Below are positions 7,516-56,007 of a stretch of DNA of 56,007 nucleotides, in pieces. The notes under the pieces are model-generated. The model was not told where the DNA came from, searched no databases, and saw only the letters and a program-made list of their open reading frames with translations. The number at the start of each line of letters is the position of its first letter. Position 1 is the first letter of the stretch. This DNA is from Methanobacteriota archaeon (GTDB lineage: Archaea > Thermoplasmatota > Thermoplasmata > SG8-5). The DNA lies in the NCBI GenBank assembly GCA_013791785.1, contig VMTD01000058.1, forward strand, positions 1 through 56,007. The letters are read 5' to 3'. Both the position numbers and the translations under genes were made by a program.

Positions 7516-7560
7516 GAAAGGGCAAATGGATTACCGGTTAATATAGATAGGCCATCAATG

Positions 7561-7810
7561 TAAGAGTTCAGTCTTCTGAAATTTTAGATCTTAGATTTTA
7601 GATTTTAGATGTGTGCTGGCAGAATGCCCAACCGTATTTTAGATTTTAGATTTTAGATGTGTGCTGGCAGAATGCCCGTCCGTATTTTAGATTTTAGAAC
7701 TTAGATTTTAGATTTTTGCAGGGAATATGCAACGTCGTCAATCCGTCGTAAATCTACAATCGTAAATCTAAAATCTACAATCGTTACCCCTTCATTTCAC
7801 TGAATACTTA
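7561..7810 (+). mobile_element. MITE-like element, family B, copy 1
   Basis: A 250-bp non-coding element with ends TAAGAGTTCAG and CTGAATACTTA, which are imperfect inverted repeats. Flanking 10-mers GCCATCAATG and CCCATCATGG match at 7 of 10 positions, suggesting an old target duplication. The interior is AT-rich, made of TTAGATTT-type repeats, and contains a 48-bp tandem duplication (copies starting at about 7611 and 7659, each with GTGTGCTGGCAGAATGCCC). Related copies lie at 16656-16873 and 43592-43794, with a broken one at 49963. No protein is encoded. Confidence 0.75.
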
Positions 7811-25430: not shown

Positions 25431-25496
25431 TTTATATACTCTAAAAAGAATATAGGTAGCAGACAAATGTCAGACGGATAATCAAATACGTCAGAC
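25431..25496 (+). promoter_or_regulatory. cdrS-ftsZ promoter with duplicated GTCAGAC operator
   Basis: TATA box TTTATATACT at 25431-25440, then GTCAGAC at 25469-25475 and again at 25490-25496, 21 bp apart, so on the same face of the helix two turns on. The 15-bp block GACAAATGTCAGACG (25462-25476) is identical to one at 55143-55157 in another promoter with nearly the same spacing to its TATA. Position between transcription start and gene start suggests repression or autoregulation. Confidence 0.7.
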
Positions 25497-25510
25497 ACGC
25501 AGGTGATAAA

Positions 25511-25831
25511 ATGACGACGGACTCGGAACGGGTCACAATCCGCATACCGAAGGATAGGCTGGATGTCCTGCAACACATGGTGGAAACCGGACAATTCCCC
25601 AACATATCCGACGCGATAAGAGCGGCCATAGACTCGTTCATCGACACGCAATTCACGCCGGACCACATAAAGAAACTCACCCTGGAGCTCCCTAAACTGC
25701 ATCATGTTTCCCTGGAGGAACTGGTGCACTCAGGCGACGCCATCTCGGTGGATGAAGCGGTAAGGAACGCGGTGAGGGAGTACGTCAAGTTGCGCCTGCA
25801 AAAAGCAACAGAGAGTCAAGAGAACAAGTGA
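25511..25831 (+). CDS. CdrS-like tandem ribbon-helix-helix regulator
   Basis: A 106-residue transcription factor with two ribbon-helix-helix units: 'RVTIRIPKDRLDVLQHMVETG...SDAIRAAIDSFI' (residues 8-43) and a second, more diverged 'KLTLELPKLHHVSLEELVHSG...VDEAVRNAVREYV' (about 56-97). RHH proteins bind DNA as dimers through the beta strand; a tandem copy could act as a built-in dimer. It lies directly upstream of ftsZ in the same direction, the arrangement of cdrS-ftsZ2 known from haloarchaea, where CdrS regulates cell division genes. Start has GGTGAT at the right distance. Two GTCAGAC sites in its own leader suggest autoregulation. Assignment as CdrS rests on fold and neighbourhood. Confidence 0.85.
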   Translation: MTTDSERVTIRIPKDRLDVLQHMVETGQFPNISDAIRAAIDSFIDTQFTPDHIKKLTLELPKLHHVSLEELVHSGDAISVDEAVRNAVREYVKLRLQKATESQENK

Positions 25832-25839
25832 AGGTGCCG

Positions 25840-26026
25840 AGCCTAGTACGGAACCTTCATCCGAACAAGGGAGAATAGCCTTGTCGGCAGATCGCGCAAG
25901 CGGTCTGGATGGGCCGGAAATACTCCGGAAGGGATGCACGCGTAGCATGCGGTTTGTCCTACTGGACAGACGGAGCAACATGTCTTCGCATTCACTCGAT
26001 GTTAGGTCGAATGCTCCAGAAAAACA
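25840..26026 (+). ncRNA. Candidate structured RNA in the cdrS-ftsZ spacer
   Basis: The 206-base gap between the two genes contains a series of local stems: ACAAGG/CCTTGT (25865-25870 with 25879-25884); CAGATCGC/GCGGTCTG closed by a GCAA tetraloop (25888-25907); CCGG/CCGG (25914-25928); TGTCC/GGACA (25955-25968); and a longer-range GGAGCA/TGCTCC (25972-25977 with 26012-26017) just before the ftsZ ribosome binding site. GC content is high and there is no reading frame. It could be an ftsZ leader that controls translation or a processed RNA. It matches no family I can name. Confidence 0.45.
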
Positions 26027-26037
26027 GAGGTGATATA

Positions 26038-27093
26038 ATGTATATGGAAAATATGGTAAAAACAGCAGGAGAAAATTCATTCGCAATGGAGAACCTGATA
26101 TCCAATCCGAAAATGTTGGTTGTCGGGTGTGGTGGAGCTGGCAACAACAGCGTGGACAGACTTCAGCGCATAGGCGTCTGGGGCGCGGAAACCGTCGCAA
26201 TCAACACGGACAGGGCACACCTGGAGAGGGTGCATGCTGACAAGAGAATTCTCATCGGCAGCAGAAAAACCAGAGGCCAGGGCGCAGGCGGCCACCCGGA
26301 GATTGGCGAGTACTGTGCAGAGGAAGCCAGGGAAGAGCTGGAACGCATCCTCAGCGGCGCAGATATCACATTCATAACCGCAGGCATGGGCGGCGGGACC
26401 GGTACAGGTTCGGCACCCGTGGTTGCAGAGGTCGCGAAGGAACTCGGTTCCGTTGTGGTCTCCATGGTTACCATACCTTTCACCGTCGAGGGAAAGGACA
26501 GGAGGCAGAAGGCCTTCATAGGTTTGGACAGGCTGAAAGCGAATTCCGACAGCACAATAGTCCTGGCCAACGACAAGCTTCTCAGCATGGTCCCCAAAAT
26601 GCCTGTTAATCAAGCATTCAGTGTAATGGACCAGATGATATCGGAAGTAATCAAGGACGTCACAGAGGCTATAACCCAGCCGTCACTGATTAACCTGGAC
26701 TTTGCAGACCTGAGAACAATCACCAGCGCAGGCGGCACATCCACGATTCTCTACGGTGAGAACTCCGCAGGAGACGCGCGCACCGTGGTCGCAGAAGCAC
26801 TGGACAATCCCCTGGTGGACGTGAACTATGACGGCGCAACAAGCGCACTCATCCACATCACCTCGGGTCCGGAACTCAATCTCAGGACCATAACTGAAGT
26901 CGTGAGCGGCTTCACTGAAATCATGGATGAAAACGCAAATGTAATCTACGGCGCCAGGACGGACCCGAAATTCGCAGGCCAGCTCAAGGTCATGGCCATC
27001 ATGAACGGCGTGGAGATGAACTACGGGTGCATGCCATCTGTCCGTATGGAAACGGCCCCGATTCAGAACGCGTACATACCCATCGTCGTATAA
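26038..27093 (+). CDS. ftsZ: Cell division protein FtsZ
   Basis: Tubulin-like GTPase that forms the division ring. The 351-residue protein has the N-terminal nucleotide site 'LVVGCGGAGNNSVDRL' (about residues 23-38), the tubulin signature 'GGGTGTGSAP' (about 119-128) and the T7 synergy loop 'NLDFADLRTI' (about 220-229), so both GTP binding and hydrolysis elements are present. The ATG at 26038 has GAGGTGAT upstream; more upstream starts would run through the structured spacer. The C-terminus lacks a long tail; it ends 'IQNAYIPIVV'. Transcription probably comes from the cdrS promoter. T-rich stretches (TTTTTTT at 27113, 27133 and 27140) follow the stop and probably terminate the message. Confidence 0.96.
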   Translation: MYMENMVKTAGENSFAMENLISNPKMLVVGCGGAGNNSVDRLQRIGVWGAETVAINTDRAHLERVHADKRILIGSRKTRGQGAGGHPEIGEYCAEEAREELERILSGADITFITAGMGGGTGTGSAPVVAEVAKELGSVVVSMVTIPFTVEGKDRRQKAFIGLDRLKANSDSTIVLANDKLLSMVPKMPVNQAFSVMDQMISEVIKDVTEAITQPSLINLDFADLRTITSAGGTSTILYGENSAGDARTVVAEALDNPLVDVNYDGATSALIHITSGPELNLRTITEVVSGFTEIMDENANVIYGARTDPKFAGQLKVMAIMNGVEMNYGCMPSVRMETAPIQNAYIPIVV

Positions 27094-43591: not shown

Positions 43592-43794
43592 TAAGTATTC
43601 AGTGAAATGAAGGAGTTGACGATTGTAGATTTTAGATTTTCGATTGTAGATTTACGACGAACTGACGACGTTGCATATTCCCAGCACAAATCTAAAATCT
43701 AAGTTGTAAAATCTAAAATACGGTTGGGCATTCTGCCAGCATAAATCTAAAATCTAAGTTCTAAAATCTAAAATTTCAGAAGACTTAACTCTTA
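43592..43794 (-). mobile_element. MITE-like element, family B, copy 3
   Basis: A 203-bp element in opposite orientation to copy 1, with the same interior type (TAGATTTT repeats, the TGGGCATTCTGCC block). Ends are TAAGTATTCAG and AACTCTTA. Flanking 10-mers TCATTGATAG (43582-43591) and TCATTGATAC (43795-43804) match at 9 of 10 positions, the clearest target duplication of the family. It lies between divergently spaced genes, upstream of the zinc-ribbon gene's start. Confidence 0.8.
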
Positions 43795-50637: not shown

Positions 50638-53600
50638 CTACAGCGTTCCGAATTCGCTCTTTATATCATCATCCGACCTGGGTCGACCGTCCGATTCCTC
50701 ATTATCGTCCGAACTGCCGTCATCGTCCGGTTCAATTTCCTCTGGTTCGCGCTGGCGCTCCAATTTGATGGGAAGTTCCTTCTTCGGGGGTCCGTGGAGG
50801 GGCTGATGGCAGATGGGACACTTACTGGCCCCGCTGACGCAGTTGTGGCACAGGTATGAGCCGCAGTGATGCCTCGTCACTGCCATGTGACCGTGGCTGG
50901 TGCAGTATTTCCTGGCCATGCCATGGTCCCCGGAATGACTCTCCTCCCGCGGTTCGGACCGTTGCTCCGGCTTCGGCTTCTGGGGTTTGGGTTGTGACTG
51001 TCTCGAACCACCGTATTCCTCGCTGACCAGCGATCCGATTTCCACCTCCGGCGCGACGTAACCGTCTTTCTTGAAAGTGGCGAGGTGCGATTGAAGCTGC
51101 TTTGCCTTCATGACACCGAGACTGAGCGATTCCACGAGACCTATGACGGACCTACGTTCGGGTGGCAATGCCAGTGCCCTGCGTAGCAACGCATCCATCT
51201 CCTGAGAATTATCAGGCGGGAACGCCATTTGGTCAACGCGCTGGATGTAGCTCAAAACCCTCTTGGCCTTCCACAGGGAGTACTCCGGGAAATTGACTGT
51301 GATATCTGACAGCCTCAAACGGGATTTCTGGGGTGCGGAGCCGCTGCCGATTGAACGGACCAGGACATCGTGGGATGCTTTTTCCATCTCGTCCCTTTCC
51401 TGGGGCGTCATACTCTGTATGGGGAACTCCTCGATCTGGTTGAGATAATTGAAAACCAATTCCAGATTCGCATACGGAACGCCGGCATCTCTGAATGCCT
51501 CCTCCCTGGAAACCGGTCGGTTGCGGTCATGCTCCAGTGCAAGAATACCCCTGGCGAATTTCTCAATCTCCTGGGCGGCAATCCTTTCCCTGGCGATGCG
51601 CAGACCGTCCTGGGCGGCACCGAATTCCGAATCCAGTTCAAGCGCACGCTCGAAGCTCCGGATGGCATTGTCCATTTTTCCCATTTCCAGAAGGACCAGG
51701 CCCTTGCTGTTCCAAGATATCTTGTCATCGGCATCCAGGCCGATTGCATGGTCATAGCATTTCAATGCCTCATCGTACTGCTTGAGCATCTCCCGGGCCA
51801 TTCCCAGGTTGTACCAGGCATCCTTGGATTCCGGATTGGAAGCGACCACTTTGTCCAGCAGTTCAACCGCCGAAACGTAATCACCAGTCTTGGAAAGTAT
51901 CATGGCAATCTTGGCCTGCAATTCCGAATCTTCACCCTCCTCCAGGGCTTTGTTGTACCAGTACTTGGCCTCATCCAGATTCTCCATTGCCTCGTAGACC
52001 TTGGCCTTGGCAGCCAGAACTTGCTTGTCCTTCGGTTCAAGTTGCAGGGCGCGGTTCAGGTATCCCAACGCTGCGTCGTACTCCTTCAGTTCCAGCTTGA
52101 GAAGCCCCACGTTGATGAGGGTGCGCAAATTATCCGGTTCCAGACCTACAGCCTTATCAAAATCGGGCACCGCCTGGTCAAACTTACCTTGGCGCATGAA
52201 GGACATGGCCCTGGCATTGAGAAGTTTCACATCGTCCGGGTGGCCCTGCAGGCCTTCGGAGAAACATCTGGAAGCATCATCGTATTTCTCCATGGAGTAG
52301 AGCGTTTTTCCCTTCCTGTAAAGTGTGCCGGAGTCGCCGGGTTTTACCTTGAGGGCACGGTCGTAGGATTCTATGGCCTCTGTACCCCTGTTGAGCTTCA
52401 GCAGCACCTCCGCCCTAATCACCCATAGATCGGACATGTTGGAGTTGGCCTTGAGACCGGAATCGGCTGCTTTCAACGCCTCATCATACATGCCCATGGA
52501 ACCGAGGGCCTTCGATTTATCATGCCATGCCCAGGAATTCGCCGGGTCCAGTTCAATGATGCGAGTGGCAATATCTATGGTGCCCTGAAGGTCTTCAAGA
52601 GCCAGCAGGGAATCTTTCTTTGCATTCAGCAGGTCTACGTTATCTGGCTCATGATGAATTGCCCGGTCGAGGGATTTCACGGCATGGGTGTGTTCACCCA
52701 GGTGCTGTTCGGCAATGGCCCGGTCGAAGTATGCCAGGACATTCTTCGGGTCCAGCTTTGTAATCCTGTCAGCGGTTTCAATTATTCCGTGATTGTCCGC
52801 GAGATTTTTCATAGCATCCTTCTTCAGAAGCAGGGCTTCCAGGTCCATGTGGTTCATCGCCAGTAATTTATTGCACGCCTCGGCTGCTTCCTGGAATCGG
52901 CCAATCTTCAGCAGAACCTCGGCCTTCTTCAGGTAGGGGAAACGGTCAGTGGGGCCGTAATTTATCGACATGTCGAAGGCTGCGATGGCCTCATCATGAT
53001 GCTCAAGCCAAGCAAGAGCGATGCCCTTGCTGTACCAGATGTTCTTGTCTTCGGGTCTCAGGCGGAGAGCATGTTCAAAGCTGGCAACAGCCTCTTCATA
53101 AGATTTGGCACTCTCGTGAGCAAGTCCCTTGCTGTACCAGAGTTCCGGGTCATCAGGGTCAATCTTGATGGCAATGTCGAATTGAGCAACGGCCTCCAAA
53201 TGTTTTTCCAGTCTGGAAAAGGAGCGCCCCTTCATGTCGTAGAACCTCTTGTCATTAGGTTCCAGTTTGATGGCCCTGTCAAAACTCTCGATTGCCTCCA
53301 CATGCATGCTTTGCATTGCCTGGGCGCGACCCTTGAGATACCATGCACGGGCATCCTTGTCGTTGAGCAGGAGGTACTTGTGAAGCGTGGCCACAGTCTC
53401 CGGGTATCTGGACATGTTGAAAAGTGCATGAGCCTTGTCCATCATTGCGGATTCGTCGTCCGGTCGGAGTGCCAGCAGGGCATCGGCGGTTTTCACGATT
53501 TCTGCATGCCTGGCAAGTTCCTTCAGGCACTCACGTTTCCTGTTCAGCGCATCCACATGTTCCGGATTGATTGTAAGCAGCTTGTTCAGGGGATTAAGCG

Positions 53601-54903
53601 CTTTCTCGTAGGCCTGTAACGCGTACAGGGCAGTACCCTTGTCATAGAGAGCGCCAACATTGTTGCGGTCCAGATGCAGTATTCTGTCGCATATGTTATC
53701 CACGGCATCGTGTCTCTCCAGCTTCTTCAGGACCTCTTTCTTCTCCACCATGATTTCCAGGTCCTTGGCGTTTATGCCCAGGGCCATGTCGAAACTCAGA
53801 AGCGCTTTCTCATCGTCTCCGAGCACGGCCTGGGATTTGCCCCGGTCCAGCAATGCATTTCGGTCATTGGATTCCAGAGCCAGCACCCGATCCGCCACCT
53901 CGATTATCTCCCTGTGCCGGCCAAGCTTTTTGAGGCTCTGGCGCTTGTTCACAAGGGCGGACATATTATCTCCGTTCAGGGTCAGGGCCATGTCAAAGCT
54001 GCCGCATGCAGCATCATAATCCTCAGCCATGTGCAGGCTCATGCCCTTCATGATCCATAATTTGACATTGTCGGATTTCAGGCGCAGCGATTCCGTGTAG
54101 CTGTCCGCGGATTCCCTGTACTTCTCGATTCTGTATAATGAGTGACCTTTCTGTTCCCAGATGAAGGGGTCATCCTTTCTGATGGAAAGGGCTTTTTCAA
54201 ATGCCGGTACGGCATCTTCATGCCGATTGGCCAGTGCCATTGCCAGGCCCTTATTCACCCATGCATCAATGAACCGGGGGTCCAGTTCCACGGCATTGGA
54301 AAATGAAAGAATTGCATCGTCATAACGGTTCAATTTGTTGAGTGCCACACCCTTCCGATTGTGAACGGTCGGGTCCCTGGGAGAAAGTGCCAGAATCCGT
54401 TCGTAGAATTCCAGGGCCAATTCGTCCGCAGCCAGAATCTTGTTATAAGCCGCAATAGCCTCAACGGGATTGCCCAGGCTCTCCAGTGCGGCGCCCTTGT
54501 TGGCCAGTGCAGATTTGTTGACTGGATCCACGGAAAGCGCGGCATCGTATTGCTGGATGGCCTGCTGAGAATTGCCGCTTCTGTAGAGATATATACCTCT
54601 GTGAATTATTGCCTTTACGTTACCCGGATCCAGTGCCAGTGCGCGGTCTATGCACCTTGTACCTTCGGCATCCCGGCCGTGGCCCAGGAATCCGTTGCCG
54701 ACAGCATCGTAAAGTGTTGAAAATTCCTTCCTGGCCATTCCGACAATTTTGCTGTTCTCGTCCAGGGTCTGCATGGCCTTCTGGTACGATTCGAGGGACT
54801 GGGGTGCCTGACCCTTGGTTTCCGTCTGCTTTCCCCTTTCCACAAGTTTTTTGACCTTGTTGAACAGCCTCTTCTCCTTGCTCATTGAATCGAGAAATCC
54901 CAT
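50638..54903 (-). CDS. Giant TPR protein with HTH-like modules and C-terminal zinc finger (1421 aa)
   Basis: About 30 consecutive 34-residue TPR units fill residues 1-1110, most with the W/Y..G.A....G...EA....A..L.P pattern, giving a long superhelical scaffold. The region about 1120-1310 contains two or three winged-helix-like segments ('RPVSREEAFRDAGVPYANLELVFNYL', 'RLRLSDITVNFPEYSLWKAKRVLSYI'). A zinc-binding motif follows at about 1333-1366 (CTSH...CGSYLCHNC...CPIC), then a very acidic tail. No membrane helix or signal, so cytosolic. The promoter holds a GTCTGTCAGAC palindrome, shared with the cdrS-ftsZ promoter and the divergent small gene. A role in a cell-division or cell-cycle complex is inference from this regulation. 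Confidence 0.9.
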   Translation of the reverse strand: MGFLDSMSKEKRLFNKVKKLVERGKQTETKGQAPQSLESYQKAMQTLDENSKIVGMARKEFSTLYDAVGNGFLGHGRDAEGTRCIDRALALDPGNVKAIIHRGIYLYRSGNSQQAIQQYDAALSVDPVNKSALANKGAALESLGNPVEAIAAYNKILAADELALEFYERILALSPRDPTVHNRKGVALNKLNRYDDAILSFSNAVELDPRFIDAWVNKGLAMALANRHEDAVPAFEKALSIRKDDPFIWEQKGHSLYRIEKYRESADSYTESLRLKSDNVKLWIMKGMSLHMAEDYDAACGSFDMALTLNGDNMSALVNKRQSLKKLGRHREIIEVADRVLALESNDRNALLDRGKSQAVLGDDEKALLSFDMALGINAKDLEIMVEKKEVLKKLERHDAVDNICDRILHLDRNNVGALYDKGTALYALQAYEKALNPLNKLLTINPEHVDALNRKRECLKELARHAEIVKTADALLALRPDDESAMMDKAHALFNMSRYPETVATLHKYLLLNDKDARAWYLKGRAQAMQSMHVEAIESFDRAIKLEPNDKRFYDMKGRSFSRLEKHLEAVAQFDIAIKIDPDDPELWYSKGLAHESAKSYEEAVASFEHALRLRPEDKNIWYSKGIALAWLEHHDEAIAAFDMSINYGPTDRFPYLKKAEVLLKIGRFQEAAEACNKLLAMNHMDLEALLLKKDAMKNLADNHGIIETADRITKLDPKNVLAYFDRAIAEQHLGEHTHAVKSLDRAIHHEPDNVDLLNAKKDSLLALEDLQGTIDIATRIIELDPANSWAWHDKSKALGSMGMYDEALKAADSGLKANSNMSDLWVIRAEVLLKLNRGTEAIESYDRALKVKPGDSGTLYRKGKTLYSMEKYDDASRCFSEGLQGHPDDVKLLNARAMSFMRQGKFDQAVPDFDKAVGLEPDNLRTLINVGLLKLELKEYDAALGYLNRALQLEPKDKQVLAAKAKVYEAMENLDEAKYWYNKALEEGEDSELQAKIAMILSKTGDYVSAVELLDKVVASNPESKDAWYNLGMAREMLKQYDEALKCYDHAIGLDADDKISWNSKGLVLLEMGKMDNAIRSFERALELDSEFGAAQDGLRIARERIAAQEIEKFARGILALEHDRNRPVSREEAFRDAGVPYANLELVFNYLNQIEEFPIQSMTPQERDEMEKASHDVLVRSIGSGSAPQKSRLRLSDITVNFPEYSLWKAKRVLSYIQRVDQMAFPPDNSQEMDALLRRALALPPERRSVIGLVESLSLGVMKAKQLQSHLATFKKDGYVAPEVEIGSLVSEEYGGSRQSQPKPQKPKPEQRSEPREESHSGDHGMARKYCTSHGHMAVTRHHCGSYLCHNCVSGASKCPICHQPLHGPPKKELPIKLERQREPEEIEPDDDGSSDDNEESDGRPRSDDDIKSEFGTL

Positions 54904-54925: not shown

Positions 54926-54936
54926 GTCTGTCAGAC
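54926..54936. promoter_or_regulatory. GTCTGTCAGAC palindrome in the giant TPR gene promoter
   Basis: An 11-bp palindrome with GTCAGAC at 54930-54936, 23 bases from the TPR start codon, between the TATA-like CGATATATATTG on the minus strand (about 54951-54962) and the gene. The sequence TCTGA recurs at 54941. Confidence 0.6.
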
Positions 54937-55012
54937 ACAGTCTGAATTACAATATATATCGTAAAGTGTATAAGTAATTTAAAGTCTTTCATCAGAGTTG
55001 AACAGTCCGGCA

Positions 55013-55028
55013 TACAAATCGTCAGACG
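55013..55028. promoter_or_regulatory. GTCAGACG site in the divergent spacer
   Basis: TACAAATCGTCAGACG resembles the GACAAATGTCAGACG block of the two gene promoters, differing mainly by one inserted base. It lies midway between the divergent TPR and small genes. Confidence 0.5.
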
Positions 55029-55106: not shown

Positions 55107-55178
55107 TATATATACTCCCGAAACGATATAGGGTTTGCGGCTGACAAATGTCAGACGAAATGAAGAAAAACGTCAGAA
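55107..55178 (+). promoter_or_regulatory. Promoter of the small gene pair with operator identical to cdrS
   Basis: TATA TATATATAC at 55107-55115, then GACAAATGTCAGACG (55143-55157, identical to 25462-25476) and GTCAGA at 55172-55177, 22 bp after the first. Same order and near-same spacing as in the cdrS promoter, so one protein probably controls both. Confidence 0.65.
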
Positions 55179-55189
55179 AGGGATGCACT

Positions 55190-55471
55190 ATGGTGGAATA
55201 CATAAAACTGAAGAACAGAGACTGGAGAACCCTCCGGGGTATGGACAGGGAAACAACAGACTGGATGAAGTATCACACGATACAGGACCTAAGGGACCTC
55301 GCCTTCGAGATGTACAACATGGGCGAAGACATATCCGAAATGGTTCAGCTAATCCATGAGATGGACAGCATGGCTCACGTAACCCACATGGGCAACGCAG
55401 ACAATGTCTACACCGACTCGGAGTACGACATACTCAGCTATGTGGAGGAGTGTGAGAAGGCCTATGTTTAA
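55190..55471 (+). CDS. Small helical protein under the shared operator (93 aa)
   Basis: A 93-residue acidic, mostly helical protein starting 'MVEYIKLKNRDWRTLRGMDRE' (read in two parts), with 'QDLRDLAFEMYNMGEDISEMVQLIHEMD' as a likely long helix pair and a C-terminal 'SEYDILSYVEECEKAYV'. No family recognised. ATG at 55190 is preferred over in-frame ATGs at 55148 and 55160 because those lie within the operator, whose copy at cdrS is non-coding; an AAAGGGATG site precedes it. Its stop overlaps the next gene by 8 bases, so the two small proteins are coupled. Shared regulation with cdrS-ftsZ suggests a division-linked role (inference). Confidence 0.65.
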   Translation: MVEYIKLKNRDWRTLRGMDRETTDWMKYHTIQDLRDLAFEMYNMGEDISEMVQLIHEMDSMAHVTHMGNADNVYTDSEYDILSYVEECEKAYV

Positions 55472-55619
55472 GTTCACACAATGGATACACAAGCCAAAGT
55501 TCGAACAGGCCAGGGATTCCGGGCCGAGCTTCGATAAGATGCACGAAGAGCAGATGCACAACATGTGCGAGCTCACCGAGAGAAATGAGAACCTCTGGAG
55601 CGCGCCACTCAATCACTGA
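55464..55619 (+). CDS. Second small protein of the operator-controlled pair (51 aa)
   Basis: A 51-residue protein starting 'MFKFTQWIHKPKFEQARDSG' with a helical C-terminus ('DKMHEEQMHNMCELTERNENLW'). The start ATGTTTAA overlaps the stop of the preceding gene in a different frame, a common sign of translational coupling in archaea. No recognised family. It is followed about 80 bases later by a strong hairpin. Confidence 0.55.
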   Translation: MFKFTQWIHKPKFEQARDSGPSFDKMHEEQMHNMCELTERNENLWSAPLNH

Positions 55620-55846: not shown

Positions 55847-56007
55847 TGATAAAGGCCGGGAACCTCCCGGTTTTTAAGCCGGGGATGAGAGGCCATTTAC
55901 ACGAATCTGAACAAAAAACAGACCGCCATGCTCATATGCATGACCCGCCATGCATCGTGCTCATATGCATGACCCGCCATGCATCGTGCTCATATGCATG
56001 ACCCGCC
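55847..56007 (+). mobile_element. Family A hairpin element cut by the window end, with tandem core repeats
   Basis: Starts TGATAAAGGCCGGG directly after TTAG and keeps the left hairpin and AGACCGCC segment of the copy at 50010. The CATATGCATG core is then repeated in tandem: a 29-bp unit (ATGCATCGTGCTCATATGC then ATGACCCGCC) occurs at least 2.7 times from about 55929 to the end of the window. The right end is beyond the window. Confidence 0.7.

Follow-up and report, generated by a model that had tools for sequence, protein, structure and literature searches.

Control of FtsZ by the ribbon-helix-helix (RHH) regulator CdrS is already known from haloarchaea, where the regulator gene lies directly upstream of ftsZ in Haloferax volcanii and Halobacterium salinarum (NF058555; PMC8406309, PMC7439475). 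Most binding of haloarchaeal CdrS is upstream of start sites and its effect seems to be activating; activation has been proposed for its upstream placement at Haloferax ftsZ1, which lies away from the cdrS operon (PMC8406309). The cdrS-ftsZ2 promoter of Halobacterium is bound by another RHH protein, CdrL, which is reported to be restricted to Halobacteria, carries a C-terminal zinc-ribbon domain and binds upstream of cdrS-ftsZ2 only (PMC7439475). Two further RHH proteins invite comparison, i.e., NikR, whose operator GTATGA-N16-TCATAC sets two recognition elements 22 bp apart (PMC7055735), and SegB of Sulfolobales, which acts in chromosome segregation and whose own promoter contains sites for it (PMC12284271).

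We analysed a 56,007-nt stretch of archaeal DNA (contig VMTD01000058.1; from here on, the window) from a genome whose nearest named relatives are Thermoplasmata MAGs including Candidatus Proteinoplasmatales. Here, too, a cdrS-like gene lies directly upstream of ftsZ, in the window as in nearly all relatives scored, and is preceded by a symmetric motif, a likeness of symmetry given that the letters of the Haloferax motif were published as a figure (PMC8406309). As in haloarchaea, an ftsZ gene away from the cdrS operon is among the targets, in this case in one family (f9). In contrast to Haloferax, where CdrS sites lie 41-110 nt upstream, most of the sites described here overlap the start site, cdrS has such a site in its own promoter, and the targets smc and small1 (encoding a 93-aa protein) are outside the Haloferax list. 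The regulator also differs in being a tandem RHH protein of 106 aa that scores under the NF058555 cut-off. Like CdrL, it is an RHH protein predicted to act on the cdrS-ftsZ promoter, whereas no C-terminal zinc-ribbon was found in it (it matches PF01402, and RHH_1 is the only domain found). The 22-bp spacing recalls the NikR operator, though the box sequence differs, each box here is itself palindromic, and no nickel-binding C-terminal domain was found by Pfam. SegB differs in serving chromosome partition, with many sites along the chromosome and a partner ATPase, SegA (PMC12284271).

We consider it probable that the site is the operator of a class-wide regulon for division and segregation with CdrS as its likeliest binder. 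In the literature searched, which covered few subscription journals, we found neither this operator sequence, its class-wide conservation, smc and small1 as targets nor the tandem-RHH form, and no operator tying ftsZ to smc.

An operator of GTCNGAC boxes at cdrS-ftsZ

The cdrS-ftsZ locus of the window has the following features:

25431-25438, + strand: TATA box of the cdrS-ftsZ promoter (TTTATATA), assigned from the sequence; relatives keep its geometry (first full box at a median of 30 bp)
25458-25464, + strand: degenerate box AGCAGAC, one 11-bp step upstream of the first full box, on a lattice suggested by the 11-12 bp tandem boxes at smc
25469-25475, + strand: operator box 1, GTCAGAC, just past the presumed cdrS-ftsZ start site and conserved class-wide
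25490-25496, + strand: operator box 2, GTCAGAC, spaced 21 bp from box 1 (most relatives have 22 bp)
25511-25831, + strand: cdrS-like gene, tandem RHH protein of 106 aa (NF058555, PF01402)
25931-25938, + strand: GGGATGCA leader element between cdrS and ftsZ
26038-27093, + strand: ftsZ (TIGR00065, 360.6 bits), adjoining cdrS on its 3' side in nearly all relatives scored

The likely ftsZ start is 26038, after a ribosome site GAGGTGAT; the longest open frame runs from 25909.

The original prediction had taken a 15-mer common to this promoter and to a second intergenic region as the operator of an autoregulated CdrS-like protein. Its observations were accurate: GACAAATGTCAGACG reads identically at 25462-25476 and 55143-55157, at 31 bp from the start of TTTATATA (25431) and 36 bp from that of TATATATA (55107), each copy is followed by another GTCAGA(C) (25469 to 25490, 21 bp; 55150 to 55172, 22 bp), and both the palindrome GTCTGTCAGAC at the promoter of the giant TPR gene (54926-54936) and GTCAGAC in the spacer (55021-55027) are found. 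The 2.62-Mb genome holds no other exact copy of GACAAATGTCAGACG, and with two mismatches allowed its matches are about at control level. Within 56 kb, such a repeat is unremarkable, since the window contains 472 recurring 15-mers, many out of interspersed repeats, and GTCAGAC itself is not clearly enriched (9 observed vs 5.4 expected); the case therefore rests on conservation at the promoters of relatives. Separately, we noted an interspersed repeat with direct and inverted copies (AGATTTTAGATGTGTGCTGGCAGAATGCCC...) at about 7560-7700 and 43690-43770 that is a source of many recurring 15-mers, and a tandem repeat (gctcatatgcatgacccgccatgcatcgt) at 55925-56007 that reaches the contig end.

Across the class, a GTCNGAC box is present in 44/50 cdrS promoters, while none of the other comparable words (64 in all) is found in more than 10. 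Exact 22-bp box pairs occur in 28 of these 50 promoters, from 11 families, compared to none for the 63 other gapped palindromes used as control words; promoters within a family are not independent, but the pattern is nonetheless seen in many families. Genome-wide, strict 22-bp pairs (GTCNGAC-N15-GTCNGAC) are found in 82/150 genomes of the class, mostly one or two each and about ten times as often as a reversed-pattern control; the cdrS site of the present genome is missed by this strict pattern because its spacing is 21 bp. Beyond the class, 10/89 other genomes of the phylum have N15 pairs, and these matches look G+C-rich (the reversed-pattern control for N15 gave 0 in all 116 genomes searched). 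As the original prediction demands, the operator is present at the matching promoters of relatives and is not common elsewhere in the genome. Conservation of the same pattern at the same promoters is far beyond chance, and with the same boxes recurring in many families and all 63 control words at zero, we regard a chance 15-mer common to two promoters as practically untenable.

What did not survive is the 15-mer as a unit. We rejected it because its letters come from a degenerate box and a full box that it overlaps, joined by AAAT, with the GAC end of AGCAGAC forming its start. Judged by its sequence, the operator appears modular instead, i.e., GTCNGAC boxes repeated on a lattice of about 11 bp over the presumed transcription start, with the first box about 30 bp past the start of the TATA box. 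Two families depart from this pattern: f11 has a degenerate site at cdrS and none at smc, and in f8 the cdrS-ftsZ gene pair is present with boxes almost absent.

smc, small1 and further candidate targets

Pattern searches for further members of the regulon showed that the earlier target list (the TPR gene and two small genes) had missed the best partner, smc, which lies outside the window. The box is present in smc promoters of 41/53 genomes, and 26 of these genomes, including the present one, have a pair at 11-12 bp (4-5 bp between boxes); control words gave no such pairs. In the window's family, each scorable genome with smc has a single exact GTCNGAC-N5-GTCNGAC site, and it is located at smc (in the present genome at G000:C145:26127-26145). 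Measured from the TATA start, the first box comes at about 31 bp for smc and 30 bp for cdrS. For small1, a degenerate box comes at 32 bp and the first full one at 43 bp. No box pair was found at the smc promoters of families f18, f8 and f11, and 3/4 f18 genomes examined lack an FtsZ hit at the threshold used, which makes f18 a natural negative for the regulon.

The second locus of the window lies between the divergent TPR and small1 genes:

50638-54903, - strand: giant TPR gene, 1421 aa (TPR families), divergent from small1
54926-54936, - strand: box-containing palindrome (GTCTGACAGAC on this strand) near the TPR start site, with a box at the matching place in G002 and G003 only
55009-55027, - strand: upstream element GTCTGAC-N5-GTATGCC of the TPR gene, preceding its TATA box by about 44 bp
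55107-55114, + strand: TATA box of small1 (TATATATA)
55139-55145, + strand: degenerate box GGCTGAC, 32 bp from the TATA start, with the full box 11 bp further on
55150-55156, + strand: small1 operator box GTCAGAC, kept in 13/13 genomes of the order
55172-55178, + strand: GTCAGAA, 22 bp after the small1 box, either a second operator box or the 5' edge of a leader element
55180-55187, + strand: GGGATGCA leader element of small1
55190-55471, + strand: small1, 93-aa protein without a family (13 homologs aligned from the 55190 start)
55464-55619, + strand: small2, 51 aa, overlapping the small1 stop

All 13 genomes of the order have a small1 homolog preceded by GTCNGAC-N15-GTC[AG]GAA, and CTGAC at the degenerate box is kept in most of them as well as in f5 homologs. 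Matches to small1 were found in 31/61 genomes searched, and each of 18 more distant small1-like genes has at least one box nearby, in five cases as a pair at 11-12 or 21 bp. An ATG at 55148, inside the second 15-mer copy, was rejected as the small1 start on the grounds that conservation begins at 55190. The protein has no match in Pfam, and its fold model is of low confidence (pLDDT 62), with no significant match in a search of PDB structures.

A regulon of cdrS-ftsZ, smc and small1 is well supported by these promoter sequences. Of the regulon originally proposed, this retains the real operator joining cdrS-ftsZ and the gene at 55190, whereas the unit, the link to the TPR gene and the second small gene fared less well. 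While small1 is kept across the order, counterparts of small2 (43-51 aa) occur in just 7 genomes of the family, including the present one. The TPR gene is the divergent neighbour of small1 in all 12 loci of the order long enough to score, and the first box of its upstream element is kept in the 12/12 scorable genomes. Its separation from the small1 end of the spacer is nearly constant (160-169 bp), and in most genomes it precedes the TPR TATA box by 42-44 bp. Conserved as this box is, it lies upstream of the gene's own TATA box, an arrangement unlike that at the other targets which makes the TPR link weaker; control of the TPR gene by the operator is plausible.

Pattern searches in family f9 led to the genes for SMC and a second FtsZ, and inspection by eye of the printed sequences placed the operator pair before this second ftsZ upstream of the TATA box, at about 100 bp in several cases. 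Second-ftsZ promoters outside f9 (n=25), likewise a natural negative, had no pair, although a pair does precede a gene of this kind in one f27 genome (L142). The other two ftsZ genes of the present genome were rejected as targets: no box lies upstream of the C110 copy, and the sequence surrounding the C53 copy showed none either. In f9, N5 box pairs also lie before a membrane-protein family without a Pfam match (L241, L248, L218) or before a KaiC-like ATPase (L242, L247). In G009 (L146, 1657-1786), three boxes in 11-bp steps and a 22-bp pair lie between convergent genes where a promoter is not obvious.

A leader element beside the operator

A second sequence, GGATGGGATGC / GGGATGCA, is common to smc, small1, several ftsZ-family genes and RHH-ftsZ spacers (25931-25938 and 55180-55187 in the window; L182, L143, L276, L278 and others). 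It is about 17-fold commoner than its reversed control in 61 genomes. GGATGGGATGC sits after the boxes at smc and small1 homologs, between cdrS and ftsZ in several families, and again within a hairpin-like locus. This conserved locus, GGGCTAG...GGATGGGATGCACTCT...CTAGCCC, lies outside long frames at L258-L261, L263, L266, L272, L277 and L283 and is possibly a non-coding RNA. Searches against Rfam at gathering thresholds gave no match for the leader element or the hairpin loci tested.

At small1, the leader element abuts GTCAGAA, such that the half-site at 55172 has two possible owners. It is always GTC[AG]GAA and never GTCNGAC in the 13/13 genomes of the order, and its GTCAGAAGGGATG string also occurs in other leaders; this half-site may thus belong to the separate element GGATGGGATGC. 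One could go further and take a 5' leader (RNA) element, GTCAGAAGGGATGGGATGC, as the shared part that owns the second GTCAGA of small1, with co-ordination being partly post-transcriptional. The enrichment and placement of the element and the invariant GAA ending of the small1 half-site speak for this explanation, which we regard as possible, if doubtful. It leaves unexplained the first box, the 22-bp pairs at cdrS and the 11-12 bp pairs at smc, all of which precede the element and are clean GTCNGAC palindromes. The leader element complements the operator rather than replacing it.

Candidate binders and proposed regulation

What the analysis shows is the operator, together with its conservation, geometry and target set; which protein binds it and through which contacts, whether regulation is positive or negative, and what biological role it has are inferences. 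As originally proposed, the first site is followed by a gene for a tandem RHH protein, with ftsZ next to it. This protein matches NF058555 (TransRegCdrSHalo) with 77.2 bits (E 6.8e-22) at a curated cut-off of 100, and we consequently call it CdrS-like and place it outside the haloarchaeal equivalog. Its residues R7, T9 and R11 are invariant in 39 CdrS-like homologs, and the N-terminal RHH domain (RHH1) aligns with NikR through the DNA-contacting strand (hmmsearch match to 1q5v, residues 6-52). The strand holding the equivalents of these three residues contacts bases in NikR-like proteins. The best Foldseek matches of the protein are RHH proteins, none of them significant. In a monomer model of moderate confidence by pLDDT (76; pTM 0.38), two strands are unpaired, as would be expected for RHH domains that pair between chains. 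The R-T-R residues are also kept in f18 homologs without the operator, so that specificity residues do not track it.

CdrS, as a tandem RHH protein related to NikR, appears the likeliest binder of the boxes. Paralogs of CdrS occur as a short single-RHH gene in the present genome (L252, G000:C61:14202), with one GTCGGAC box after its TATA box, and in relatives (L143 and L103) as a second tandem-RHH gene that precedes a third ftsZ-like gene. The latter two form a paralogous cdrS-ftsZ-type operon, whose RHH promoter has a related operator and whose spacer contains the leader element. Given related sites at other RHH genes, a paralog may share or take the binder role. That the operator is real and its main binder one of these paralogs, with cdrS as target and not regulator, nevertheless seems unlikely to us. 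The GTCGGAC box of the short paralog lies in its own promoter, the second tandem-RHH gene has GTCNTAC-N15-GTCAGAC in G002 and G005, and in Halobacterium it is CdrL, not CdrS, that binds the cdrS-ftsZ2 promoter as its sole site (PMC7439475). Against this, strict pairs are most consistent at cdrS itself, and a CdrS search of the present genome detected no full second tandem-RHH gene. Autoregulation is also common among RHH regulators, which further argues for CdrS.

Spaced by 11-12 or 21-22 bp, the boxes are in phase and share one face of the DNA. They cover the presumed transcription start at cdrS-ftsZ, smc and small1, whereas at the second ftsZ of f9 they lie upstream of the promoter. The palindromic box makes one RHH1 homodimer per box the simplest reading: the N-terminal RHH domains of two CdrS chains would pair, with R7, T9 and R11 entering the major groove of each box, and neighbouring dimers may co-operate via the second RHH domain. 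A box over the start site suggests repression and autoregulation, in that CdrS bound there would stand in the way of RNA polymerase and jointly limit smc, small1 and the cdrS-ftsZ operon; an upstream position, as at the second ftsZ and perhaps the TPR gene, suggests activation instead. The mostly upstream, seemingly activating placement of haloarchaeal CdrS and the presence of CdrL at cdrS-ftsZ2 count against this model, as do the departures in f11 and f8, the related sites at other RHH genes and the R-T-R residues of f18.

How division is coupled to chromosome segregation in archaea that divide by FtsZ is an open question. The defined operator and its short target list, with three promoter regions in the present genome, make such a link testable in cultivated members of the class, and nominate the 93-aa small1 protein as a candidate co-regulated division or segregation factor. 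More tentatively, one small RHH regulator could co-ordinate condensation by smc and cytokinesis by ftsZ across most of the class via a single operator code, with GGATGGGATGC as a second element, hitherto undescribed, on the same transcripts and in a stand-alone hairpin RNA, and small1 as a new division or segregation protein. If true, this would amount to a two-layer cell-cycle regulon of operator and leader element.
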